Shown here piece by piece: positions 19,528 to 32,559 of a stretch of DNA of 64,000 bases. The position numbers and the translations under genes were made by a program. The notes beneath the pieces are model-generated. The model did no database searches and was not told the DNA's origin. It worked only from the letters and a program-made list of their open reading frames with translations. The stretch comes from Litorivivens lipolytica (GTDB lineage Bacteria > Pseudomonadota > Gammaproteobacteria > Pseudomonadales > Spongiibacteraceae): NCBI RefSeq assembly GCF_014191715.1, contig NZ_JACHWY010000003.1, positions 620,001-684,000 on the forward strand, in the 5' to 3' direction. Each line of letters opens with the position of its first letter. Positions within the stretch are counted from its first letter, which is position 1.

Positions 19528-20730
19528 ATGTCGGCACCCGCAGGCGAGGTATATTTCGACCCTTACGCACATGAGGTCCACGACGACCCCTATCCCTACT
19601 ACGCAAGAATGCGCCAACACGCGCCAGTGTACTACAACGAGGAGCACGGCTATTGGCTGCTCACCAAGTGGGATGACTGTTACAAGGCCTTTCGCGATGT
19701 GGAAACCTTCAGCAGCACGGCGGGCCCCGCCCTTGAAGCCCAGCAGGACGCCAATGCCGGCTATCCGATGTTTATCAACATGGATCCGCCGGATCACACC
19801 CGCATCCGGCAGTTGATTCAGTCGCTGATGCTGCCCAAGCGGATTTATGCGCTGGAGCAGTACATTCGTGACAAGGCGGTCAGCCTGCTCACGCCGCACC
19901 TTGAAAAGGGTTACATGGATCTGACTCAGGATTTTGCGGCCCTGCTGCCGATGGATGTGATTTCCACCATGATCCATGTGCCAGAAAAGGATCAGGATAA
20001 AGTGAGAGGCTGGGCCGACGACCTGATTTACCGGGAAGACGGTCAGTTCGGTTTGGATGAGCGTAATATCAATGCCTACTTCAATCTCGGGAAATATTTC
20101 GATGAGTTGGCGACGGAATTGTCGGAGCCATTGAAAGGCGGTGATGATATTTTCAGTGCGGTGCTGGATGCCGAGCGCGAAGGCAAGCTCACCCATCAGG
20201 ATGTAATCGGGTTTGGCATTCTGCTGGCCATTGCCGGCAACGAAACCACCACCAAGCTGATCGGCAATATGTGCTACCGCCTGTGGCAGCACAAGGATCA
20301 ACGGCAGATGTTGCTCGACGATCCCTCATTGATGGGCAAGGCGGTGGAGGAGACCCTGCGCTTTGACGGCTCCACTCAGCTGATTGGTCGGCAGGTGATG
20401 AAAGACGTCGAAATTCGCGGGAAAACTCTGAAAAAAGGCGAACGCGTGGGGCTGTGTATCATCTCCGCCAGCCGCGATGAAGAAAAGTTCGAAAACGCCG
20501 ACAGCTACGACATAACCCGTGGCAGTCGCGATCATATGGCTTTTGGTAAGGGCATCCACTCCTGCATCGGCGCCAATCTGGCGCGACTGGAAATTCAGGT
20601 GTGCATGGAGGAAATCCTGCGCCTTATTCCAGACTATGAGATCGACGAATCACGGCTGGAGCGAACCCACAATCCGAACGTGCGCGGCTTTACCCATGTG
20701 CCCGTAGCGTTTACGCCAAAACGCGCCTGA
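19528..20730 (+). CDS. Cytochrome P450
   Basis: A 400-residue soluble class I bacterial P450 (monooxygenase). The haem motif FGKGIHSCIGANLARLE places the axial thiolate at C346. The oxygen-activation I-helix is LLAIAGNETTTKLIGN at about residues 230-245, and the K-helix ExxR is in VEETLRFDGS. There is no signal peptide. No ferredoxin or ferredoxin reductase gene is adjacent. ATG 19528 follows GAGG. It is divergent from the double-MarR regulator and probably inducible by its substrate; that substrate (terpenoid, steroid or xenobiotic) cannot be inferred from sequence alone. Confidence 0.94.
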   Translation: MSAPAGEVYFDPYAHEVHDDPYPYYARMRQHAPVYYNEEHGYWLLTKWDDCYKAFRDVETFSSTAGPALEAQQDANAGYPMFINMDPPDHTRIRQLIQSLMLPKRIYALEQYIRDKAVSLLTPHLEKGYMDLTQDFAALLPMDVISTMIHVPEKDQDKVRGWADDLIYREDGQFGLDERNINAYFNLGKYFDELATELSEPLKGGDDIFSAVLDAEREGKLTHQDVIGFGILLAIAGNETTTKLIGNMCYRLWQHKDQRQMLLDDPSLMGKAVEETLRFDGSTQLIGRQVMKDVEIRGKTLKKGERVGLCIISASRDEEKFENADSYDITRGSRDHMAFGKGIHSCIGANLARLEIQVCMEEILRLIPDYEIDESRLERTHNPNVRGFTHVPVAFTPKRA

Positions 20731-22251: not shown

Positions 22252-22770
22252 TTGACTAGCAAACAATCTCAAGCCTCTAAAGACATTGTGCAGGAGGCGT
22301 TGAGCTTCCGAGTGCCTCAGGCGACTGACGGCGCAGCACTTCATCAGCTGGTGGCGAACTGTCCGCCGCTGGATCCGAACTCGCTCTACTGCAACCTTTT
22401 GCAGTGCTCGCACTTTGCCGACACCGCCGTGGCGGTGGAATACGAAGGCGAGCTGGTGGGTTTCATCTCCGGTTATATCCCCCCGAACAAGCCCGACACC
22501 CTGTTCGTTTGGCAGGTAGCCGTGGATTCGTCCATGCGTGGTCAGGGCTTGGGTGGCCGCATGTTGGGTGAACTGGTGGATCGCACCGGCGTTAAGTGGA
22601 TGGAAACCACGGTAACGCCCGATAACGGCGCCTCCTGGGGCATGTTCCGCAGCTTTGCCCGGAAGCGTAACGCCGAATGTGAAGATTGCGGCCCGCTGTT
22701 TGAGCGCGACGCACACTTTGGCGGCCAGCATGACAGTGAGCATCTGGCGCGGCTGGGGCCCTTTAAGTAG
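22252..22770 (+). CDS. ectA: L-2,4-diaminobutyrate acetyltransferase
   Basis: GNAT acetyltransferase that forms N-gamma-acetyl-diaminobutyrate, the second step of ectoine synthesis. It has 172 residues from TTG 22252. The start is uncertain because no clear ribosome binding site precedes it and no ATG exists in the first 60 codons. Motif A for acetyl-CoA binding is VAVDSSMRGQGLGGRMLGEL at about residues 90-109, and the ETTVTPDNGASWGMFRSFAR stretch is typical of EctA. It is the first gene of ectA-ectB-ectC-ask. Confidence 0.93.
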   Translation: MTSKQSQASKDIVQEALSFRVPQATDGAALHQLVANCPPLDPNSLYCNLLQCSHFADTAVAVEYEGELVGFISGYIPPNKPDTLFVWQVAVDSSMRGQGLGGRMLGELVDRTGVKWMETTVTPDNGASWGMFRSFARKRNAECEDCGPLFERDAHFGGQHDSEHLARLGPFK

Positions 22771-22812
22771 GCCTCTCGAAAACCGAATTTAATGAATCGT
22801 AGTAAGCATTAA

Positions 22813-24117
<1,305 letters not shown>

Positions 24118-24139
24118 GGTCAGGATTGCGATTGCGGCG

Positions 24140-24256
24140 GGAGATCGCCGCGTCGCTGCGCTCCTCGCGATGACGGGGCAGTGCAGGCTTCTCGCGATGA
24201 CGGATGTGTTTAATTAGCCCTCGTCATTGCGAGGAGCATCGCGACGAAGCAATCTC
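24140..24256. repeat. REP-like repeats inside the ect operon (block 4)
   Basis: GAGATCGCCGCGTCGCTGCG.CTCCTCGCGATGACGG and the inverted GTCATTGCGAGGAGCATCGCGACGAAGCAATCTC sit between ectB and ectC. Together they form a potential long hairpin within what should be one transcript. Confidence 0.85.
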
Positions 24257-24310
24257 AACCCGACACAGCAAAGCCAACAGAACACGGAACACCAGATTCA
24301 AGGAAACACA

Positions 24311-24712
24311 ATGATTGTAAGAACACTGCAGGACTGCATTAACAGCGATCGCCACGTGCGCTCCGACAATTGGGAAAGCACCCGCATGTTGCTCAAGAAT
24401 GACAACATGGGGTTTTCTTTCCACATCACCCGCATTTTTGCCGGTACCGAAACGCCGATCCACTACCAGAACCATCTGGAGTCGGTGTACTGCATCTCTG
24501 GCAGCGGTGAGGTGGAAACCTGCGACGACGGTAAGATTCATCGTATCGAGCCGGGCACCATCTACATTCTGGACAAGCACGACAAGCACTTGCTGCGCGC
24601 CGACGAAGGCGAAGACATTGTGTTTGCCTGCGTGTTCAACCCGGCCCTGAATGGCAAGGAAGTCCACGATGAAAACGGCGTGTATCCGCTGGAAGCGGAG
24701 ACAGTGGAGTAA
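24311..24712 (+). CDS. ectC: L-ectoine synthase
   Basis: Cupin-fold hydro-lyase that cyclises N-gamma-acetyl-diaminobutyrate to ectoine. ATG 24311 gives 133 residues, close to the family norm, and the conserved opening [20 protein letters not shown]. Upstream codons of the same frame come from the repeat block and are excluded. Metal and substrate residues expected in the cupin core lie within [21 protein letters not shown] and [11 protein letters not shown] short gap leads to ask. Confidence 0.95.
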
Positions 24713-24763
24713 GGCATCACCGAAACCATGAGTAGCCATACCCAACGCAAACAGGGGGACGTT

Positions 24764-26200
24764 ATGTCACATACCGTTGAAAAAATCGGCGGTACATCCA
24801 TGAGTCAGTACGCTGCCGTCAGAGACAATGTGATTGTCGGTCAGCGCGAGGCTGATGAATTGTATAACCGCGTGTTTGTTGTGTCGGCCTACGGCGGCAT
24901 GACCGACAAACTGCTGGAAGCCAAAAAGGGCGGCAAGCCGGGTGTCTACGCCCTATTTGCAGGTTCTGAAAATGAAGGCGAATGGCGCGAGGCGCTGGCA
25001 GAGGTTCGTGAAGCCATGCTCGCGATCAACGAGACGCTGTTTGAGAGCGGCGCGCTGCTGCAACAGGCTAACGCCTATATCGAAGAGCGCATCAGTGAAG
25101 CCGAGCGCTGCCTGAACGATCTCGACCGTCTGTGTCAGCACGGCCACTTTGAGCTGGAAGGTCAGCTCCTGACCGTGCGTGAAATGCTGGCTAGCCTCGG
25201 CGAAGCCCACAGTGCCTGGAATATGACCCATCTGCTGCAGCGCGACGGTATCGCCGCGCGTATGGTCGATTTGAGTGGTTGGCGCGCCGACAGCGCGCTG
25301 CCGCTGGACGAGCATATTCAGGAAGCGTTTAACGACGTCGACCTGAGCAAGGAACTGGCCATCGTCACCGGCTACGCGCACTGCGAGGAAGGTCTGATGG
25401 CCACCTTTGACCGGGGCTACAGTGAAATGACCTTTAGCCGCATTGCGGTAATCACCAAAGCCCGCGAGGCGGTAATCCACAAGGAATACCACCTGAGCAG
25501 CGCCGACCCGCGCGTGGTCGATGAGGAAAAAGTGGTGCCGATTGGCCGTACCAATTACGACGTGGCGGACCAGCTGGCCAACCTCGGTATGGAAGCCATT
25601 CACCCCCGTGCCGCTAAGGGCCTGCGTCAGAATGACATCCCGCTGCGGGTAAAAAACACCTTTGAGCCCGAGCACAGCGGTACGCTGATCACCCGTGACT
25701 ACGTGAGTGATTCGCCCTGCGTGGAAATTATCGCCGGCAAGCAGGTGGTGTATGCGGTTGAGCTGTTTGACCAGGAAATGGTGGGTGACGTGCACAGCTA
25801 TGATCAGGGCTTTCTGGCGCTGGTGAAAAAGCTGAAGGCCAAGATCATCACCAAGGACCTGAACGCCAACACCATCACCATGTATCTGGGCACCAACCTG
25901 AAAACCGTGAAGCGGATTATCCGTGAGCTGGAGTCCGCCTACCCGAAAGCTGAACTGACCTACCGCAAGGTGGCAATTGTCTCAGCGATTGGCAGCGACA
26001 TGCAGGTCCCGGGCATGCTGGCGAAGACCGTATCGGCACTGGCCGAGAGCAATATCAGTGTGCTGGCCATGCATCAGTCCATGCGGCAGGTAGACATGCA
26101 GTTTGTAATCAATGAAGATGATTACAACAAGGCGATTCAGAGCCTCCACCGCTGTCTGGTTGAGCCTCACAACCACGGCCTCGCGATCTGCGCGGCCTGA
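24764..26200 (+). CDS. ask: Ectoine-type aspartate kinase (Ask_Ect)
   Basis: Phosphorylates L-aspartate to feed the aspartate semialdehyde used by EctB. I choose ATG 24764 because it has AGGGGGA before it and yields the conserved HTVEKIGGTSMSQYAAV opening; an ATG at 24728 in the same frame has no such support. It has 478 residues: kinase domain about 1-320, ACT domains in the last ~140 (VAIVSAIGSDMQVPGMLAKTVSALAES). The Ask_Ect group occurs in ect operons and is thought to be less sensitive to amino-acid feedback. Confidence 0.94.
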   Translation: MSHTVEKIGGTSMSQYAAVRDNVIVGQREADELYNRVFVVSAYGGMTDKLLEAKKGGKPGVYALFAGSENEGEWREALAEVREAMLAINETLFESGALLQQANAYIEERISEAERCLNDLDRLCQHGHFELEGQLLTVREMLASLGEAHSAWNMTHLLQRDGIAARMVDLSGWRADSALPLDEHIQEAFNDVDLSKELAIVTGYAHCEEGLMATFDRGYSEMTFSRIAVITKAREAVIHKEYHLSSADPRVVDEEKVVPIGRTNYDVADQLANLGMEAIHPRAAKGLRQNDIPLRVKNTFEPEHSGTLITRDYVSDSPCVEIIAGKQVVYAVELFDQEMVGDVHSYDQGFLALVKKLKAKIITKDLNANTITMYLGTNLKTVKRIIRELESAYPKAELTYRKVAIVSAIGSDMQVPGMLAKTVSALAESNISVLAMHQSMRQVDMQFVINEDDYNKAIQSLHRCLVEPHNHGLAICAA

Positions 26201-26232: not shown

Positions 26233-26423
26233 ATTACGTGACACACTTCACCGGCTAGTGGTATTTACGTAGAGCAAAAGCGCCCCCTCGGTAGTAGGGT
26301 GTAGTCATGAAGTCCGGCACTGAAATACCGCCTTGCAGCGGCCGGGCAGTAGTCAGTGGCCGAGGAGGCGAGCAGGTGCAAATACCGGCAACGGAACAAG
26401 ATCAAGAGGCCAGAGCCAGCCAC

Positions 26424-26858
26424 ATGGAAACTCGAACTGTATTGATTGTCGATGATTCCAGCGGAGACCGACTGGTAATTCGCCGTGCCTTTGAGCGTAC
26501 CCGGCGCGATATAAAGCTCGTGGAACTGATCGATGGTGAAGAGCTGGTGGATTACGTGGAGCGCAAAATCCCCTTTAAGGATGTGGTGAGCTACCCCGAG
26601 CCCGACCTGATTTTGCTGGATATCAACATGCGCCGGCTGGATGGCAAGCAGGCCCTGAAACTGCTGCGTTCCAAGCCCGAATACACCGACGTGCCGGTGG
26701 TAATGTTAACCACCTCATCGCGTGAAAAAGATATCAACGAGTCCTACGAGCAGGGTTGTACCGACTACATTACCAAGCCGGAAAACTTCAAGGATTTCAT
26801 GCAGGCGATCACCAACGTCTGCGCCTATCTGGATAACCCTGCGGCAGCGGCGACCTAG
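26424..26858 (+). CDS. Rcp1-like single-domain response regulator
   Basis: A 144-residue receiver-only response regulator. Acidic residues are in LIVDDSSGDRL, the phospho-acceptor aspartate is in LILLDINMRRLDGKQAL, the switch Thr/Ser in VVMLTTSSREKDI and the lysine in DYITKPENF. The frame is open to ATG 26307, but homology begins near ATG 26424, so I use that start with moderate confidence. There is no output domain. The nearest kinase is the ethylene-receptor-like gene at 29050, on the same strand and about 2.2 kb downstream; pairing is an inference. Confidence 0.8.
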   Translation: METRTVLIVDDSSGDRLVIRRAFERTRRDIKLVELIDGEELVDYVERKIPFKDVVSYPEPDLILLDINMRRLDGKQALKLLRSKPEYTDVPVVMLTTSSREKDINESYEQGCTDYITKPENFKDFMQAITNVCAYLDNPAAAAT

Positions 26859-27015: not shown

Positions 27016-28047
27016 TCATCGCGGCACTTCAGCCAAAACCCCCACATGCTCATCCCGCAGTCTGCCCGTTTCATGCATCCACAGTAGTAGATCCCGAAAA
27101 GACGTTTCCGCATCCACCGTTTCCAGTTGAAACTCCCTGAGCGCTGCTGAGTCATCACTGGGTACGCTGGTTGTCAGCACACTGGCGGCCTCATAGGTGA
27201 GTGGTGACGTTTTACCTCTGAGCCCGGCGATTACCTCGCCGATACGCCCCATCCACCGCAGTAGCCAGCCCGGTATGCGTTGGGCTTTTAGCCTGCGCCC
27301 GGTCAGTTTTTCGAGCAGCTCGTGGAGCTCCTCGTGCGATACATAGTTCCCACCGAACATATAACGCCGCGGCCCATGGCCAGCTTCAAAGGTGCAGCTA
27401 AGGGCCTTTGCCAGATCGCGCACGTCGGTATAGACCAAGCCTCCTTGCGTCACGAGTACCGAACCGGACTTCAGGTAGCGGGCAATCAATTGGGGGCCGT
27501 CGCTGAACGTCGGGTCATGAGGGCCCTGTACCGCACCCGGGTACACACAGACTACTGGCGCGCCGCAGTCCTGAAACTCGCGCGCAATGGCTTCGGCGCG
27601 GGCCTTGGTGGCGGCGTAAACCGAGCTGGGTGAGCGTACGGGATCAGCGGCGGTTTGAATGGCGCCGGGCGGCGGGAACAGCGCCAGAATGCTGGACACA
27701 TGCACAATCGGGTCGAGCCCGAGTTCTGAGGCCAGGCTGAGAACCGCGCGAGTGCCATCAATGTTGGTGCGCTCCATGAGCGCCTTGTCTTCCTGGCGAT
27801 TGGAAAACAACCCGGCGGTGTGCAGCACCGCATCGCACCCCTCTAGGGCGTTGCGCAGGGCGCTGGCGTCACCCAGCTCGCCCTTGGCGATCTCGCATTG
27901 ACCAACCGCTACACCGAGTGGCGTGAGAACCCGTTCCAGCTTGGCGGCATCTCGCATAAAAGCGCGCACGGTGTGCCCATTTTGCAGCAGGGCAGAAATA
28001 CTGTGGGCGCCTACTAAGCCAGTGCCGCCAGTAACCAGAACTTTCAC
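27016..28047 (-). CDS. Extended SDR (NAD-dependent epimerase/3beta-HSD-like)
   Basis: A 343-residue extended short-chain dehydrogenase. The Rossmann glycine motif is TGGTGLVGAH at residues 6-15, the catalytic serine region is VHVSSILALF (117-126), and the catalytic pair is Y144-x3-K148 in VYAATKA. It starts at GTG 28047 behind GGAG, ten bases after the cycloisomerase-like gene, so the two share an operon. Such SDRs include sugar epimerases, HpnA-like proteins and 3beta-hydroxysteroid dehydrogenase/C4-decarboxylases. The partner gene favours a sterol or triterpenoid substrate, but the sequence alone does not decide this. Confidence 0.85.
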   Translation of the reverse strand: MKVLVTGGTGLVGAHSISALLQNGHTVRAFMRDAAKLERVLTPLGVAVGQCEIAKGELGDASALRNALEGCDAVLHTAGLFSNRQEDKALMERTNIDGTRAVLSLASELGLDPIVHVSSILALFPPPGAIQTAADPVRSPSSVYAATKARAEAIAREFQDCGAPVVCVYPGAVQGPHDPTFSDGPQLIARYLKSGSVLVTQGGLVYTDVRDLAKALSCTFEAGHGPRRYMFGGNYVSHEELHELLEKLTGRRLKAQRIPGWLLRWMGRIGEVIAGLRGKTSPLTYEAASVLTTSVPSDDSAALREFQLETVDAETSFRDLLLWMHETGRLRDEHVGVLAEVPR

Positions 28048-28057
28048 GGCATTCTCC

Positions 28058-28894
28058 TCATGCGGTTACCACCGGCCCCAAAATCAGAGCCCACAAATCC
28101 AGCAGAAGCAGGCTGATGGCACTCACTGCGCAGGCCTCTAGCACGGTGCGTGACAGGCTCCAGTCTGCGCTCTCTTCATCCAGCCGAAATACATTGGGGA
28201 AGCTGACGATAAAGTACATGGCGTAGTAGATGGAGCCCCACTTCAACATGCGCTCCAGATCCACATACCAGACGTTCGCAGCCGCATCGTCGGTGATGTA
28301 AAAGTAAGTTTCCGCCCAGGCAAAAAACAGGGCGGTGGTGGCGACAATGACCATCCACGCCAGTGTGCGCCCCGATTTTCCCCAGCCTCCGGTCATGCTG
28401 CGAATACGGCGCATCACCACCACGGCGGCGGTGTGATACACAATAAAAAAAGCAATGGAGTTCAAATACATACCCGGCGGTACTTTCTTGTGCTGGGCCA
28501 GTGCCGTGGCCTCGTCGGGGCCCACCAGTACCGAATCAAAATGCAGGCTCACATCGTTAAAACGGTAGCGCAGCCCCAGTACGTCGAAAAAATACTCGGT
28601 GTGAAAATAGGTACAGAAGAAGATAAATACCGCCATGTACACATTGAGCTTAAACCAGTAGCTCTGCTGCCACGGCACGCCGCTATTGCGGCGCAGTACC
28701 CACGGTACGATCACGCAAAAGGGGAACCACATGATCAGGTTCTGGGTGATATGCCAGAAGTTGCCGGCGTCCAGCCAGCCGGTTTGCTGCATCAGGGCGT
28801 TGTAGGCGAAAAACACCGGAATATAGGCGAGGAAAAACTTCTCCGCCCACGCCTTGTCGGGGTTGTGGGAGAACCAGTAGCCGCGCGGGGTCAT
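28058..28894 (-). CDS. Homologue of plant cycloeucalenol cycloisomerase
   Basis: A 278-residue polytopic membrane protein with about six hydrophobic segments. From memory of the Arabidopsis CPI1 protein, several blocks align closely. They are NPDKAWAEKFFLAYIP (11-26), YWFKLN followed by YFHTEYFFDVLGLRYRF (79-112), and YHTAAVVVMRRIRSMT. Near the C-terminus come YAMYFIVSFPNVFRLDEES (224-242) and LLLDLWALILGP. The plant enzyme opens the 9,19-cyclopropane ring of sterol precursors; the bacterial substrate is unknown. It is the first gene of an operon with an SDR, behind a TTGACA/TAACAT promoter that carries a TetR-type palindrome. Confidence 0.72.
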   Translation of the reverse strand: MTPRGYWFSHNPDKAWAEKFFLAYIPVFFAYNALMQQTGWLDAGNFWHITQNLIMWFPFCVIVPWVLRRNSGVPWQQSYWFKLNVYMAVFIFFCTYFHTEYFFDVLGLRYRFNDVSLHFDSVLVGPDEATALAQHKKVPPGMYLNSIAFFIVYHTAAVVVMRRIRSMTGGWGKSGRTLAWMVIVATTALFFAWAETYFYITDDAAANVWYVDLERMLKWGSIYYAMYFIVSFPNVFRLDEESADWSLSRTVLEACAVSAISLLLLDLWALILGPVVTA

Positions 28895-28908
28895 ATTATT
28901 CTTCTCTA

Positions 28909-28930
28909 AAACATTTCTTTTGAAATGTTA
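28909..28930. promoter_or_regulatory. TetR-type operator over the cycloisomerase -10 box
   Basis: AAACATT-TCTTTTGA-AATGTTA, containing perfect 8-bp arms AACATTTC/GAAATGTT. The same pattern and spacing recur at 30945-30966 in front of the TetR gene. It overlaps the -10 box (TAACAT, 28925-28930 on the minus strand), which suits repression. Confidence 0.75.
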
Positions 28931-28954
28931 TTGCTCGCGCGGTGTCGATGTCAA
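28925..28954 (-). promoter_or_regulatory. Promoter of the cycloisomerase-SDR operon
   Basis: On the minus strand a consensus TTGACA (28949-28954) is followed after 18 bases by TAACAT (28925-28930). The start codon is about 30 bases downstream. The -10 box lies within the TetR-type palindrome. Confidence 0.65.
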
Positions 28955-29049
28955 TGCGTGTGAAATTTTTCCGCACGCTCTGGCGAGCAGGGCAGGTATC
29001 TTGAACTACACTAAGACATTGAGCTAAAAACCTTTTTACCGGAGCCGCC

Positions 29050-30267
29050 ATGGGCAACTTCTTCGATAACTTCTTCGGCAACAAGATGCCGCCGCACGGC
29101 CACTGCTACCTCTGGGACGACCGGCTGGTATCCCTGCATGTGGTGACCGATGCCATCATTGTGCTGGCGTATTTCACGATTCCACTGGCCTTGGTCTACC
29201 TGGTGCGTCGGCGCGACGATCTCAGCTTTAACTACATGTTCGTGCTGTTCGCCATTTTCATTTTTGCCTGCGGTACTACCCATCTGGTGAATATCTACAA
29301 CGTCTGGTACGGCGCCTATTGGTTCAGCGGCACCATCAAGGCCATTACCGCCGCGGCCTCCATCGGTACCGCGATTCTGGTTTGGCCGCTGATTCCCAAG
29401 GCTCTGGCCATACCCAGCAACCGGGTGCTGCAGGGGTTGAATGAAAAGCTGAGCCAGGAAGCGAACCGCAATGCCCAGCAAGCCCGTGAACTGGAGCAGC
29501 TGTCCAACCGTTTGGAGCAGCAGGTGCACGAGCGCACCGCAGAGCTGGAAAACGCCAAGCGGCTGCTGGAGGTGAACAATAAGGCGCTGGAGGCGAGTAA
29601 CCGCGAACTGAATGAATACGCCAATATCACCGCCCACGACCTGCGAGAGCCGCTGAAGAAAATCCGCGCTCAGGCGCGTCTGCTGGGCAGCAAACTTGGC
29701 CCGGATCACGAAGCTGAATTGAAGCGCAGTGCGCTGGATATCGCGGAAACCAGCGAGCGGATGGGCGAACTGGTGGATTCACTGCTGTCCTATGCGCGCG
29801 TTGAGTCCGTGTCGGTGCCCGCCGAGGATGTCGACGCCGACGGCGTGCTTGAGGAAGTGGTCAGCGATCTGGGCATCCAGATGCGCCAGCGTGATATTTC
29901 CATTATCCGCAACGCCCTGCCGAAGCTGCCGGTGGAGCGTTACCACCTGCATCAGATTCTGCTGAATCTGTTGAGCAATGCCATTAAATTCAGCGCTGAA
30001 GGGCGCAATCCCGTGATAGAAGTTGGCCCCCTGCGGCCAGCGGATCGGAGCTTGTTAGGCTTTCATGTGCGCGATAATGGTGCGGGGATTCCGGAGTCCG
30101 ATCACGAGCGTATCTTCCGCTTTGCGGAAGGTGATGGCAGCGAGAGCCGAGGCATCGGGCTGGCGATCTGTAAGAAAATCGTCGAGAAATACGGCGGCAG
30201 CATCGAAGTCGATAGCCGCGAAGGCGAAGGCTCCAACTTCAAAGTCTATTTCCCAAGCCGCGCCTGA
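29050..30267 (+). CDS. Histidine kinase with ethylene-receptor-like sensor domain
   Basis: A 405-residue membrane histidine kinase. Residues 20-117 form three membrane helices that resemble the ethylene-binding domain of plant ETR1 and cyanobacterial homologues. They contain TDAIIVLAYFTIPLALVYLV with D34 (ETR1 D25) and ACGTTHLVNI with C74 and H78 (ETR1 C65 and H69, the copper ligands). A coiled coil at about 130-188 leads to the DHp helix with H196 in TAHDLREPLKKI, then the HATPase with NLLSNAIKFS, DNGAGIP and SRGIGLAICKKI. The partner is probably the Rcp1-like regulator at 26424. The ligand is not proven. Confidence 0.85.
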   Translation: MGNFFDNFFGNKMPPHGHCYLWDDRLVSLHVVTDAIIVLAYFTIPLALVYLVRRRDDLSFNYMFVLFAIFIFACGTTHLVNIYNVWYGAYWFSGTIKAITAAASIGTAILVWPLIPKALAIPSNRVLQGLNEKLSQEANRNAQQARELEQLSNRLEQQVHERTAELENAKRLLEVNNKALEASNRELNEYANITAHDLREPLKKIRAQARLLGSKLGPDHEAELKRSALDIAETSERMGELVDSLLSYARVESVSVPAEDVDADGVLEEVVSDLGIQMRQRDISIIRNALPKLPVERYHLHQILLNLLSNAIKFSAEGRNPVIEVGPLRPADRSLLGFHVRDNGAGIPESDHERIFRFAEGDGSESRGIGLAICKKIVEKYGGSIEVDSREGEGSNFKVYFPSRA

Positions 30268-30274
30268 CGCGGCT
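30256..30274. terminator. Short hairpin between convergent kinase and TetR genes
   Basis: AGCCGCG and CGCGGCT with a 5-base loop span the kinase stop codon and the end of the TetR gene. The stem is GC-rich and has no T-run, so it is a weak terminator candidate for both directions. Confidence 0.4.
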
Positions 30275-30897
30275 CAGTTCAGTAGCCGCTTGCCGCGCAG
30301 CATCAACAACATGCTGCGTTTGATGCGCTCGAGGTGGGCGGCCTCATTGGCGATTTCGCCTTCAAACACCTGCTCTATCATCAGCCCGGTCAGAAAGGTA
30401 TGGGTGTAAATCAGAGCTTCCAGTAGTGCATCGTCACTCAGTTGGCAGTCGCCGAACCAGGCCTGCATGGTGTGGGCGTGGCTACTGGACTGCTGTTTGA
30501 TTTTGGAGTCTGGAGCGGTCAGCGGATTCTTGCGGCTGGCCAGCAGGATCTCGAGAGTGGCAACGTAGAGATCGCTTTGGTAGTGCTGCCACATGCGGTC
30601 CACAAACTCGTCTACCCGCTTTTTCAGTGAGCCCTCGGTGCTGGCGTCGCTGTCCAGCATTTCGGTAAAGCGCTGGTGCGACTGATCGAGAATGGCCGCC
30701 AGAATATCTTCCTTCGAGCCAAAGTGATGCTGCACCGCGCCCCAGGTCAAACCTGAGCGGCGGGAAATCTTGCTGGAACTGGCCGCGCCAAAGCCACCCT
30801 CGTTAATCAGAGAGATCACCGCGTTCAAAATCTTTTCGCGGGCAATAAGGGTTTTCTGGGCCTGTTTACCGAGCTTGCTGGGGGCGTCCGTTGTCAT
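30274..30897 (-). CDS. TetR family regulator
   Basis: A 207-residue TetR-type regulator. The N-terminal helix-turn-helix covers about residues 15-60 (ILNAVISLINEGGFGAASSSKISRRSGLTWGAVQHHFGSKEDIL, shown here as its family landmarks); the C-terminal domain is helical and ligand-binding. I place the start at ATG 30897. Longer versions of the frame would run across the palindrome at 30945-30966, which is better explained as its own operator. The same palindrome lies at the cycloisomerase-SDR promoter, so this protein probably controls both units. Confidence 0.85.
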   Translation of the reverse strand: MTTDAPSKLGKQAQKTLIAREKILNAVISLINEGGFGAASSSKISRRSGLTWGAVQHHFGSKEDILAAILDQSHQRFTEMLDSDASTEGSLKKRVDEFVDRMWQHYQSDLYVATLEILLASRKNPLTAPDSKIKQQSSSHAHTMQAWFGDCQLSDDALLEALIYTHTFLTGLMIEQVFEGEIANEAAHLERIKRSMLLMLRGKRLLN

Positions 30898-30944
30898 CGC
30901 TGTAACCGGTTGTGGCTCACCCGACAGGGGCGAGCGCAAAAAGA

Positions 30945-30966
30945 AAACATTGTATCGAAAATGTTT
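30945..30966. promoter_or_regulatory. TetR-type operator upstream of the TetR gene
   Basis: AAACATT-GTATCGAA-AATGTTT has perfect 7-bp arms and an 8-base centre. It is the same arrangement as the site at 28909-28930, 48 bases upstream of the TetR start codon, and points to autoregulation. Confidence 0.72.
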
Positions 30967-31109
30967 GCGATCGCGCACCCCTCTGCGTGGCGGCGTTGCG
31001 ACTTAAGTCGCTTGTTTGGCAGTTGACGGCCTGAATAATATCGCGCAATTTGTGCGGCTGTTGGTGCCTGAGCCACTATTGTTTCACGTATTTGCTGTGG
31101 GGAGCTGTT

Positions 31110-31847
31110 ATGGAATGGATCGGCAGCCCGGAAGCCTGGGTGGCTCTGTCGACTTTGATCGCCCTGGAAATTGTACTGGGCATAGACAACATCATCTTCA
31201 TTTCCATTCTGGTGGCGCGCCTGCCCGTGCACCAGCGCGACAAGGCACGGCGCATCGGTATTGGCTTGGCCATGCTGTCGCGGCTGGCTCTGCTTTTTGC
31301 GTTGACCTGGGTGATGGGGCTGACGAAAGAATTGTTTACCGTGTTCGGCGAAGGCTTCTCCGGGCGCGATATGATTCTGATCGGCGGCGGCCTGTTTCTG
31401 TTGCTCAAATCTACTCACGAAATTCACAACAGCTTTGAAATCGACCATGAGGAATCCGGTGCAAATCCGGCGGCAGCAACCTTCGGCTCAGTGCTGTTCC
31501 AGATCTGCCTGCTGGATATCGTATTCTCGCTGGATTCCGTCATTACCGCAGTGGGCATGGTGGACCACATTTCCATCATGGTAATCGCAGTGGTGGTTTC
31601 CGTACTGGTGATGCTGCTGGCATCCAAATCCATCGCCGACTTTGTCGACGCTAACCCCACCATCAAAATGCTGGCGCTGGCCTTTCTTATTCTGATCGGC
31701 GTCACGCTGATTGTGGAAGGCTTTGATGTGCATGTGCCGAAGGGTTACATCTACTTCGCAATGGCCTTCTCGGTGACGGTAGAGCTGCTGAATATTCGCC
31801 TGCGAAAAAGCAAGCAGGCGATACGCTTACAGAAGAAGATTGGATGA
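31110..31847 (+). CDS. TerC family integral membrane protein
   Basis: A 245-residue TerC/YgdQ-type membrane protein with seven or so helices, implicated in metal ion (manganese) export or membrane-protein metalation in other bacteria. ATG 31110 follows GGGGAG and gives the conserved start WIGSPEAWVALSTLIALEIVLGIDNIIF, whose acidic-asparagine motif (E..LGIDN) is repeated in LLDIVFSLDSVITAVG. The stop codon (TGA 31845-31847) overlaps the first base pairs of a repeat unit, so the repeat abuts the gene directly. Confidence 0.92.
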   Translation: MEWIGSPEAWVALSTLIALEIVLGIDNIIFISILVARLPVHQRDKARRIGIGLAMLSRLALLFALTWVMGLTKELFTVFGEGFSGRDMILIGGGLFLLLKSTHEIHNSFEIDHEESGANPAAATFGSVLFQICLLDIVFSLDSVITAVGMVDHISIMVIAVVVSVLVMLLASKSIADFVDANPTIKMLALAFLILIGVTLIVEGFDVHVPKGYIYFAMAFSVTVELLNIRLRKSKQAIRLQKKIG

Positions 31848-32069
31848 GATCGCTGCGTCGCTTCGCTCCTTAGCATGCCCCGCGAAGCGCTTTGGGTACG
31901 CGATGACGGTTCCACCCTCAACACCCCCCACCGTCATTGCGAGCCACGTGAAGCAATCTCGACCAGTCCGCCGCCAGCGTGACGAGATCACCACGTCGCT
32001 GCGCTCCTCGTGATGACGGTTGCTCGGCCGCATAGCAAACGTCATTGCGAGCGCCGCGAAGCAATCTCC
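31846..32069. repeat. REP-like intergenic repeats (block 6)
   Basis: Four units between terC and the GIY-YIG gene. They are a long variant with TTAGCATGCCCCGCGAAGCG, a GTCATTGCGAGCCACGTGAAGC..AATCTCG unit, an inverted GAGATCACCACGTCGCTGCG..GTGATGACGG unit, and a final GTCATTGCGAGCGCCGCGAAGC.AATCTCC ending 60 bases before the GIY-YIG start codon. Confidence 0.87.
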
Positions 32070-32128
32070 TTCCGCACGCTCCAACAACGAACTACCCTGA
32101 AAAAACCGTACACAAGGAGGTGTACCAA

Positions 32129-32422
32129 ATGCCCAAATCGCCGTGTGTTTACATCGTTACCAATCGCCGCCAAGGCACACTTTACATTGGAGTCACTTCA
32201 TCTCTGGTGCAGCGTATATGGCAGCATAAACAGAAAGTTGTGGGTGGATTTACTGCGCGCTATAACCTGAGCAAATTAGTTTGGTTCGAAACCCATGAAT
32301 CAATGGAATCGGCCATACTTCGTGAGAAACAGCTCAAAGCAGGGTCGCGCATACGCAAGGTGAAATTGATTGAGGAAGTAAATCCTGAGTGGCGTGATTT
32401 GTACGAGAACATCGTGGGTTGA
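32129..32422 (+). CDS. Solitary GIY-YIG nuclease-domain protein
   Basis: A 97-residue single-domain protein of the GIY-YIG superfamily (UvrC-N/homing-endonuclease type). Catalytic motifs are CVYIVTN...TLYIGVTSS (the GIY...YIG equivalents, with Tyr residues near 8 and 19), R/H residues in VQRIWQHKQ, and the glutamate in AILREKQLK near residue 70. ATG 32129 follows AAGGAGG at good spacing. Repeat units flank it on both sides, the downstream one starting 5 bases after the stop codon. Proteins of this size are often found beside such repeats (my recollection), so a link to repeat mobility is possible. Confidence 0.85.
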   Translation: MPKSPCVYIVTNRRQGTLYIGVTSSLVQRIWQHKQKVVGGFTARYNLSKLVWFETHESMESAILREKQLKAGSRIRKVKLIEEVNPEWRDLYENIVG

Positions 32423-32427
32423 AGGCT

Positions 32428-32559
32428 GAGATCGCCACGTCGCTGCGCTCCTCGCGATGACGGTAATACCACCGTGTACCCACCGTCATTGCGAGCCCAG
32501 CGAAGCAATCTCGTCCAGTCCGCTGCCAACTCAATGATACCGCCACCTCGCGATGACGA
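32428..32559. repeat. REP-like intergenic repeats (block 7)
   Basis: Immediately after the GIY-YIG gene: GAGATCGCCACGTCGCTGCG.CTCCTCGCGATGACGG, an inverted GTCATTGCGAGCCCAGCGAAGC.AATCTCG and a partial CCACCTCGCGATGACG tail. The block ends just before the cyaA stop codon. Confidence 0.86.

Follow-up and report, generated by a model that had tools for sequence, protein, structure and literature searches.

The locus considered here, at positions 28058 to 30966 of a 64,000-nucleotide stretch of Litorivivens lipolytica DNA (the window), raises the question why a marine bacterium with no apparent capacity for sterol synthesis carries a homologue of the cycloeucalenol cycloisomerase of plants (CPI1; the bacterial protein is called CPI below), an enzyme whose reaction is called plant-specific in PMC12667688. 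An operator preceding the gene recurs beside genes predicted to take up and degrade sterols, and on this account CPI probably helps the bacterium to feed on algal or plant sterols. It seems quite likely that CPI and the adjoining short-chain dehydrogenase (SDR) gene form one branch of a TetR-controlled regulon, scattered over the genome, for the use of eukaryote-derived sterols. Bacterial sterol catabolism as known centres on 4-desmethyl sterols, e.g. cholesterol, and the cyclopropane ring and extra methyls of cycloartenol-type sterols should block the cholesterol-type route. The analysis names candidate enzymes and a regulon for passing this block.

The CPI gene and its neighbours

The features of the locus are as follows.

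27016..28047, minus strand: extended SDR (3beta-HSD / SdmB / HpnA-like), 10 bp downstream of CPI
28058..28894, minus strand: CPI, 278 residues, helical and hydrophobic, homologue of plant CPI1
28910..28929, no strand: operator AACATTTCTTTTGAAATGTT, in the divergent spacer between CPI and kinase, 16 bp upstream of the CPI start
29050..30267, plus strand: ethylene-receptor-like sensor histidine kinase (PF25487 ETR1_N, HisKA, HATPase_c), a neighbour outside the core module
30274..30978, minus strand: open reading frame of a TetR-family regulator (PF00440), likelier start ATG 30897
30946..30965, no strand: operator AACATTGTATCGAAAATGTT, preceding the preferred tetR start codon (30897)

The ATG at 30897 is preferred as the tetR start because the operator falls within the longer reading frame. 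The four genes named in a first-pass annotation (CPI-like, SDR, kinase and tetR) are all present, the SDR lying beyond the interval it gave, and its view that the SDR is co-operonic with CPI agrees with the shared strand and the 10-bp gap. Its interpretation holds for the CPI1 homology, the SDR operon and the TetR operator, while the kinase is not supported as a member of the module beyond close kin.

CPI aligns over its full length with an unverified reference copy of the Arabidopsis CPI1 sequence at 30% identity (pairwise E 5e-34). Among 62 aligned rows 34 residues are invariant, and 27 of these are identical in this plant sequence, compared to at most seven in shuffles; the seven which are changed or missing include E100 (H in plant), D120 and G125 (gap). 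Searches of Pfam, NCBIfam and PDB sequences gave no significant match, and the identity of CPI is therefore based on the direct alignment with plant CPI1; the protein was placed in no unrelated membrane family, an outcome that the first-pass annotation had named as refuting its reading, and its description of the enzyme as CPI1-like is borne out by this alignment and the shared invariants. The AlphaFold model (pLDDT 89.8) is helical nearly throughout, and Kyte-Doolittle averages over 19-residue windows reach at least 1.6 in three separate regions (49-67, 142-161 and 247-278) and at least 1.2 in five, which predicts a polytopic membrane protein. A fold search of the PDB found nothing similar to CPI (best Foldseek E 1.1, best Z 3.8), and so gave no clue to its function. 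Relatives are absent from the plasmid and viral collections searched. By homology CPI is a member of the cyclopropyl-sterol isomerase family, and its activity and substrate would follow from this kinship.

We know of no earlier bacterial cyclopropyl-sterol isomerase, and bacterial entries are likely among the CPI families of InterPro or PANTHER. Among the papers listed in literature searches for bacterial CPI, and for the degradation of sterols in connection with CYP51 or cycloartenol, none deals with a bacterial CPI in its title or abstract. Nor is one described in the available parts of PMC13277303, PMC10202945, PMC5790920, PMC4919349, PMC8172173, PMC10070321, PMC10714780 and PMC12667688; in PMC10714780 the CPI term stands among the enzymes that are predicted to occur in gut fungi.

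The SDR matches PF01370 and PF01073 (3Beta_HSD; 65.1 bits, over the cut-off), and scores 161.3 bits against NCBIfam HpnA (cut-off 367.65) and 113.1 bits against SdmB (cut-off 600), in both cases below the cut-off. It is a candidate 3beta-hydroxysteroid dehydrogenase or C-4 decarboxylase. The regulator matches PF00440 at 38.6 bits, scores 27.3 bits against the NCBIfam KstR equivalog, below its cut-off of 280, and is proposed as the repressor of a sterol regulon.

Operator sites and predicted sterol genes in the genome

The operator, which a generic repeat finder did not report, is a 20-bp palindrome, AACATT-N8-AATGTT, with two 6-bp half-sites separated by an 8-bp spacer, and it precedes both CPI and tetR. 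The first-pass annotation had proposed a 22-bp operator common to the TetR gene and the CPI operon; the sharing stands, while 20 bp fits better. In the whole genome, which is 99.99% complete, there are five exact and four one-mismatch sites, versus two for a reversed-pattern control at up to one mismatch. At up to two mismatches the signal is lost in noise (68 sites versus 51), and therefore no regulon member was taken from that search. The five exact sites belong to the CPI operon, to tetR and to three predicted sterol loci, and to none elsewhere. The three loci are:

TonB receptor and LLM-CYP51 operon
3-ketosteroid Delta4-dehydrogenase-like flavoprotein with two TonB receptors
CYP125-like P450

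Three of the four one-mismatch sites are likewise at sterol-type loci: the CYP51 locus has two of them, and the third precedes an LLM oxidoreductase gene by 42 bp. The site C1:1573537, one of the nine at up to one mismatch, is flanked, as read by eye, by a short-chain dehydrogenase gene and a permease-like gene; having no evident sterol link, it was taken as chance.

The closest PDB relatives of the operator-flanked genes are CYP51 (E 2e-123), CYP125 for the second P450 (E 4e-100) and, for the flavoprotein, the 3-ketosteroid-Delta4-5alpha-dehydrogenase 4AT0 (E 2e-99); TonB receptors occur at two of the three operator loci other than CPI and tetR. The sequence of the P450 at the CYP51 locus identifies it as CYP51, with GHHTSS and FGGGRRKC, the I-helix and heme motifs, both present. 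It lies about 241 kb from CPI and is connected to it by the operator only. The genome further contains nine matches to KshA-type Rieske proteins (PF19298, KshA_C; best 247 bits, weakest 24.8, cut-off 23.3). As judged by sequence family, these KshA-type proteins, together with the CYP125-like P450 and the Delta4-5alpha-dehydrogenase-like flavoprotein at exact operator sites, are the predicted counterparts of the 3-ketosteroid 9alpha-hydroxylase, side-chain P450 and 3-ketosteroid dehydrogenase of sterol catabolism of the 9,10-seco type. A distant homologue (24% identity) of the 8,14-sterol reductase 8,14-Bsr is found at C2:480398, on a different contig from CYP51, with five of six checked residues kept and Y78 replaced by F.

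CPI loci in relatives

The comparison comprised 79 fetched loci of CPI-bearing relatives, 30 in a window-like group and 49 in other CPI groups. At 44 of the 79 a CYP51 gene is no more than 3 kb away from CPI. A cultured relative, Parahaliea mediterranea, is among those with a CPI homologue. Outside the window-like group CYP51 (40/49 loci) and the NTF2-like 8,14-Bsr (30/49) are the commonest CPI neighbours tested, and at locus L053 the CYP51 is ferredoxin-fused. Within the window-like group CYP51 occurs at five of the 30 loci, any tested partner at 20 and 8,14-Bsr at none. The 8,14-Bsr residues Y37, Y43, Y78, Y80, D133 and D136 were checked by their published positions in an alignment of the relatives' own sequences; all six are present with the same numbering in L055, and each is conserved in 27 to 31 of the 32 rows, the reference and its second copy being counted among them.

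In 28 of the 79 relatives an SDR gene shares the strand of CPI and is at most 1.5 kb away, and TetR homologues are near CPI at seven loci (at least 40% identity) or ten (at least 29%). The association with SDR and TetR genes, the lack of which in a neighbourhood survey would by the first-pass annotation have refuted its reading, thus recurs but is far from universal. At the Solimonas and Nevskia loci examined no SDR or CYP51 match stands beside CPI. One small open reading frame preceding CPI at these loci is of the carboxymuconolactone decarboxylase family.

Eight relatives together hold ten exact operator sites, and 14 at up to one mismatch, versus at most zero and one, respectively, for 59 permuted half-sites. 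Three of the 14 lie across the start called for an LLM gene, and two stand ahead of a flavoprotein gene whose product has only 23-24% identity to the Delta4-dehydrogenase-like protein. There is no site in the 49 loci of the other CPI groups, and at three of these a TetR gene was seen whose product is at least 29% identical. One contig stretch of Haliea (L073) brings together CPI, OYE-like, Delta4-dehydrogenase-like (65%), SDR, TetR, TonB-receptor-like, LLM, CYP51 and PQQ-dehydrogenase genes.

Among same-order genomes a CYP51-like P450 is found in 25 of 29 with CPI (two of the 29 CPI matches, in G045 and G142, being short or marginal) versus 15 of 264 without (Fisher P 7e-22, kinship ignored). 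The four CPI genomes without a CYP51 match are all under 90% complete, and one has a P450 fragment belonging to the CYP51-like cluster at a contig edge. Of the 15 CYP51-like matches in genomes without CPI, four are 30-34% identical and may not be CYP51. KshA_C is found in 24 of 25 CPI genomes tested, a hand-picked set (G000 and 24 of the 79); one of 14 control genomes gave a match, and none exceeded the cut-off.

Alternative readings, a proposed route and known systems

The first-pass annotation had left the substrate open among sterols, hopanoids and other lipids, and suggested a search for cyclase genes. The triterpene cyclase family PF13243 has no match in any of the 29 CPI genomes of the order, that of the window included, and a hopanoid substrate is disfavoured since the window's genome has no squalene or oxidosqualene cyclase match. 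The genome-wide operator sites and the CYP51 neighbourhoods favour a eukaryotic sterol, one of the several readings offered there. A PF13243 cyclase does exceed the cut-off in nine of 49 CPI genomes outside the order, among them some Myxococcota and Nevskia, where CPI may consequently be biosynthetic, but de novo sterol or hopanoid synthesis in this organism is extremely improbable: besides the missing cyclase, matches to the squalene-epoxidase family PF08491 are weak and arise in E. coli as well, as UbiH-type enzymes presumably would cause, and they are uninformative since ordinary genomes give them too. It is also quite improbable that the bacterium modifies imported sterols and retains them for its membranes or for signalling, with no catabolism. 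CPI, CYP51 and the 8,14-reductase are biosynthetic-type steps, and sterol producers and degraders are both discussed by Lee et al. 2026 (PMC13277303); the same operators, however, flank the CYP125-like and 3-ketosteroid dehydrogenase-like genes, and the genome has its nine KshA_C matches.

CPI might instead be a sterol-nucleus double-bond isomerase in the same catabolic regulon, acting on lanosterol-type or demethylated sterols with no cyclopropane. Cyclopropane opening is tied to CPI solely by sequence homology, seven of the 34 bacterial invariants differ or are missing in the plant protein, and the regulon and CYP51 neighbourhood fit either substrate. This is nevertheless rather unlikely, given the 27 invariants held in common with plant CPI1 and the presence of CPI in only 25 of the 40 genomes with a CYP51-like match, which would fit a step that is optional and serves a single class of substrates. 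Finally, the kinase, described earlier as ETR1-like, does match PF25487 (124.9 bits, cut-off 27), which identifies an ETR1 N-terminal domain, and carries CGTTH, fitting C-x3-H, the copper-ligand motif. An operator sits within the CPI/kinase spacer and the arrangement is kept in both close Spongiibacteraceae relatives, but these are the only two of the 79 with a close homologue beside CPI (the kinases near CPI in L111 and L114 are only 27% identical). On these counts the kinase was ruled out as a core part, and it is unlikely that it works within the module by sensing an algal or plant signal together with sterols.

In the preferred reading of CPI, as part of a sterol-feeding regulon, TonB receptors would import cyclopropyl, 14-methyl sterols of algae or plants. 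CPI would then, by analogy to plant CPI1, protonate and open the 9beta,19-cyclopropane of cycloartenol- or cycloeucalenol-type sterols to give a Delta8 sterol, after which CYP51 would remove the 14alpha-methyl, in the order presumed from plants. The plant enzyme favours 4-monomethyl substrates (PMC12667688). An 8,14-sterol reductase may follow in many relatives; the window's genome has only the distant homologue. The SDR may oxidise the 3beta-hydroxyl, possibly with C-4 decarboxylation, and the CYP125-like P450, the Delta4(5alpha)-dehydrogenase-like flavoprotein, KshA-type Rieske oxygenases and acyl-CoA enzymes would degrade side chain and rings. In the presence of a sterol, or of an intermediate formed from one, TetR would leave its operators. 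CPI would in this way extend the diet to cyclopropyl sterols; Spongiibacteraceae and Halieaceae isolates are reported to grow on cholesterol (PMC5790920). On balance we lean to the more general view that in marine bacteria without sterol synthesis CPI opening, C-14 demethylation by CYP51 and C-4 removal make up a catabolic front end, with a dedicated TetR regulon, for algal and plant cyclopropyl sterols. If true, this would be the first known bacterial cyclopropyl-sterol isomerase and would probably explain why CYP51 persists in bacteria that make no sterols, and it would bear on the bacterial alteration of the sterols of algae and plants, from which sterane biomarkers in part derive. It also raises the question whether plant CPI1 and the bacterial proteins share an ancient origin or result from gene exchange. 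The present tree, in which a single unverified plant sequence sits on a branch of 2.5 changes per column, does not decide this.

The KstR regulon of actinobacteria likewise has a TetR-family repressor, a palindromic operator and dispersed genes for sterol uptake and degradation, but the present regulator is far under the KstR cut-off and its operator is unlike the KstR motif. The SDR belongs to the broad family of SdmB of the SdmAB / ERG26-type C-4 demethylation (113 bits), although it scores far under the SdmB cut-off and the CPI operon has no SdmA-like partner. The bacterial CYP51 / 8,14-Bsr sterol system is approached by the CPI loci outside the window-like group, where both its genes recur, whereas the window's genome has only the distant 8,14-Bsr homologue on another contig than CYP51; the terms cycloisomerase and cyclopropyl are absent from the main text of PMC13277303. 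Compared to plant and algal CPI1, the bacterial protein is 30% identical to the plant one and has an additional loop of about 18 residues, its host shows no sterol cyclase, and its gene lies within a predicted catabolic regulon. Full-length homology, size and most family-invariant residues are nevertheless common to both, and while plant CPI1 acts just before CYP51 (PMC12667688), the bacterial gene adjoins CYP51 or shares an operator with it.

Module genes and the identity of CPI

Gene calls on the 64-kb window, which lies on contig C3 of a 3.49 Mb genome, bore out the four gene positions proposed in the first-pass annotation:

27016-28047, minus strand: SDR of the 3beta-HSD type, 10 bp from CPI and in a common operon with it
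28058-28894, minus strand: CPI, homologue of plant CPI1
29050-30267, plus strand: ethylene-receptor-like kinase, divergent from CPI
30274-30978, minus strand: tetR, adjoining the kinase (likelier ATG at 30897)
Beyond tetR: TerC-family gene (Pfam)

CPI, a 278-residue homologue of the plant cyclopropyl-sterol (cycloeucalenol) isomerase, has no significant match in Pfam, NCBIfam or the PDB sequences, and aligns over its full length with a provisional sequence of Arabidopsis CPI1, the single plant reference used, at 30% identity. The 62-row CPI alignment (the window protein and 61 of the 79 loci fetched) holds 34 invariant positions, at 27 of which the provisional plant sequence is identical, against a maximum of seven in 2000 shuffles of the plant row. 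Since a chance match to the bacterial invariants is hardly expected, this agreement also supports the plant reference sequence itself. The other seven invariants are not found in this CPI1 sequence, and the bacterial and plant proteins differ at E100 and in one loop. CPI has three to five hydrophobic stretches by hydropathy, and its structure model is nearly all helix and of high confidence (pLDDT 89.8); a fold search of this model against solved structures gave no resembling fold. The nearest named relatives by CPI protein, among the matches listed, are Spongiibacteraceae (92% and 85% identity).

The kinase combines an ETR1-type sensor domain with kinase domains (Pfam) and carries the C-x3-H motif of the ethylene receptor. 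As a close homologue stands beside CPI in just two relatives among the 79 loci listed, both Spongiibacteraceae, the kinase is placed outside the core module, and a link to CPI is conceivable. A response-regulator receiver protein with no other Pfam domain, encoded near the kinase (26307-26858, plus strand), is its possible partner. The window also holds an ectoine-type cluster at 22252-26200 (GNAT acetyltransferase, class-III aminotransferase, ectoine synthase and an amino-acid kinase with ACT domains) and, at 31842-32496, imperfect repeats flanking a GIY-YIG-domain ORF (32045-32422).

The operator and its dispersed sites

The operator, a 20-bp palindrome (AACATT-N8-AATGTT) and the proposed target of the window's TetR, lies 16 bp upstream of the CPI start, with a second copy upstream of tetR. 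The whole genome contains five exact and four one-mismatch sites, compared to two for a reversed-pattern control. The further sites, with C1 and C3 standing for contigs, are:

C3:404653, exact, closely accompanied by two one-mismatch sites: separates a TonB receptor gene from LLM-CYP51-LLM-PQQ-dehydrogenase genes
C1:1329835, exact: precedes a flavoprotein whose top PDB match is 3-ketosteroid-Delta4-5alpha-dehydrogenase, with two TonB receptors downstream
C1:1331306, exact: between a P450 nearest CYP125 and zinc-dehydrogenase/quinone-oxidoreductase, LLM and molybdopterin-oxidoreductase genes
One-mismatch site: 42 bp upstream of an F420-type LLM oxidoreductase
Fourth one-mismatch site: sterol link not evident

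A molybdopterin oxidoreductase (L069:13286-15577) is the second gene past one of the five exact sites. A further P450 in the window (19528-20730, plus strand), with CYP125MRCA proteins as top PDB matches, has no operator nearby in the whole-genome list of sites with at most one mismatch.

Eight relatives encoding a homologue of the window TetR hold ten exact operators and 14 with at most one mismatch, while the 59 other half-site permutations gave at most zero and one, respectively. Of these 14, 13 are found at starts of probed genes (CPI 2, tetR 2, CYP51 1, LLM 5, PQQ-dehydrogenase 1, flavoprotein 2), and one has no probed gene next to it. Three of the five LLM sites overlap the called LLM start, and the flavoprotein at the two sites has no more than 23-24% identity to the Delta4-dehydrogenase-like flavoprotein. 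The 19 loci that group with the window's CPI and have no window-type TetR in the fetched stretch hold five exact operators (none in permutations) and eight with at most one mismatch (at most two in permutations); the 49 loci of other CPI groups hold none. A Haliea stretch (L073) unites in one place much of the regulon dispersed in the window's genome.

Neighbourhoods and co-occurrence of CPI

The genome scan returned at least 79 CPI loci, those listed spanning Gammaproteobacteria (Spongiibacteraceae, Halieaceae, Nevskiaceae including Solimonas, and others), Alphaproteobacteria (Zavarzinia), Myxococcota and one Chloroflexi record. Of the 79 listed, 44 have CYP51 no more than 3 kb from CPI, 28 a same-strand SDR no more than 1.5 kb away, 30 a gene resembling bacterial 8,14-sterol reductase (8,14-Bsr) beside CPI, ten a window-type TetR and 17 C-4-processing-type genes (sterol-desaturase-like, GMC, ALDH, 3beta-HSD). 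At least one tested partner occurs in 62; the other 17 have none, 11 of them with at most 16 kb searchable. The 30 listed loci of the window-like group score lower than overall (CYP51 in five, SDR in 13, any partner in 20), and none has 8,14-Bsr. Of 293 genomes from the order, 29 have a CPI match and 40 a CYP51-like P450 (E at most 1e-60); 25 of the 29 CPI genomes have both (Fisher P 7e-22, uncorrected for kinship), and the four without a CYP51 match are all less than 90% complete. The 15 of 40 genomes with a CYP51-like match that lack CPI fit a facultative module serving a single class of substrate, and also permit another isomerase role.

8,14-Bsr occurs in gamma- and alphaproteobacteria, often adjoining CYP51, according to a paper whose main text contains neither "cycloisomerase" nor "cyclopropyl" (PMC13277303). 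A SnoaL/NTF2-like neighbour of CPI of about 200 aa carries all six residues named there for the reductase, with identical numbering, and in such neighbours at other loci each is kept in 27-31 of 32 rows. In the window's genome the one homologue found is distant (24% identity) and lies on a separate contig.

At nine loci (L129, L132, L143, L144, L147, L150, L151, L152 and L155) sets of sterol-desaturase-like, GMC oxidoreductase and aldehyde dehydrogenase genes, in most with a 3beta-HSD, adjoin CPI and CYP51; they may provide another way to oxidise the C-4 methyl and decarboxylate. A small ORF directly abuts CPI in Solimonas and in Nevskia (L083:7576-7956 and L089:7633-8001), the Solimonas one belonging to the carboxymuconolactone decarboxylase family. 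Contig L103, which bears the title Klebsiella pneumoniae (MAG), holds a sterol cluster with a CPI that falls among those of Halieaceae; its record has probably been mislabelled or is a mixture.

Breakdown or synthesis of sterols

CPI may have a role in synthesis in genomes bearing a squalene/oxidosqualene cyclase (PF13243), which exceeds the cut-off in nine of the 49 other CPI genomes, Myxococcota and Nevskia included. No PF13243 match was found in the window's genome or in the 28 other CPI genomes of the same order, and the sole match among the 41 genomes searched is in one without CPI. The Rieske-oxygenase family KshA_C has nine matches in the window's genome, one adjoining the CYP51 locus, and at least one in 24 of 25 CPI genomes of a hand-chosen sample; none of 14 control genomes exceeds the cut-off, and one matches below it. 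Spongiibacteraceae and Halieaceae isolates have been reported to grow on cholesterol (PMC5790920). The absence of the cyclase from the order's CPI genomes, the KshA_C matches and the cholesterol growth of kin together make breakdown of imported sterols the better reading.

The simplest account from the sequence is that CPI would convert algal or plant cyclopropyl sterols, presumably imported and perhaps also inducing, into Delta8 sterols, making them accessible to CYP51 and the downstream catabolic enzymes. This is consistent with the 3beta-HSD-type SDR in the operon, with the lack of a sterol cyclase in the order's CPI genomes, with a common operator for CPI and CYP51 in one genome and their adjacency in others, and with the order of steps described for plants, where CPI acts after the loss of one C-4 methyl and before CYP51 (PMC12667688).
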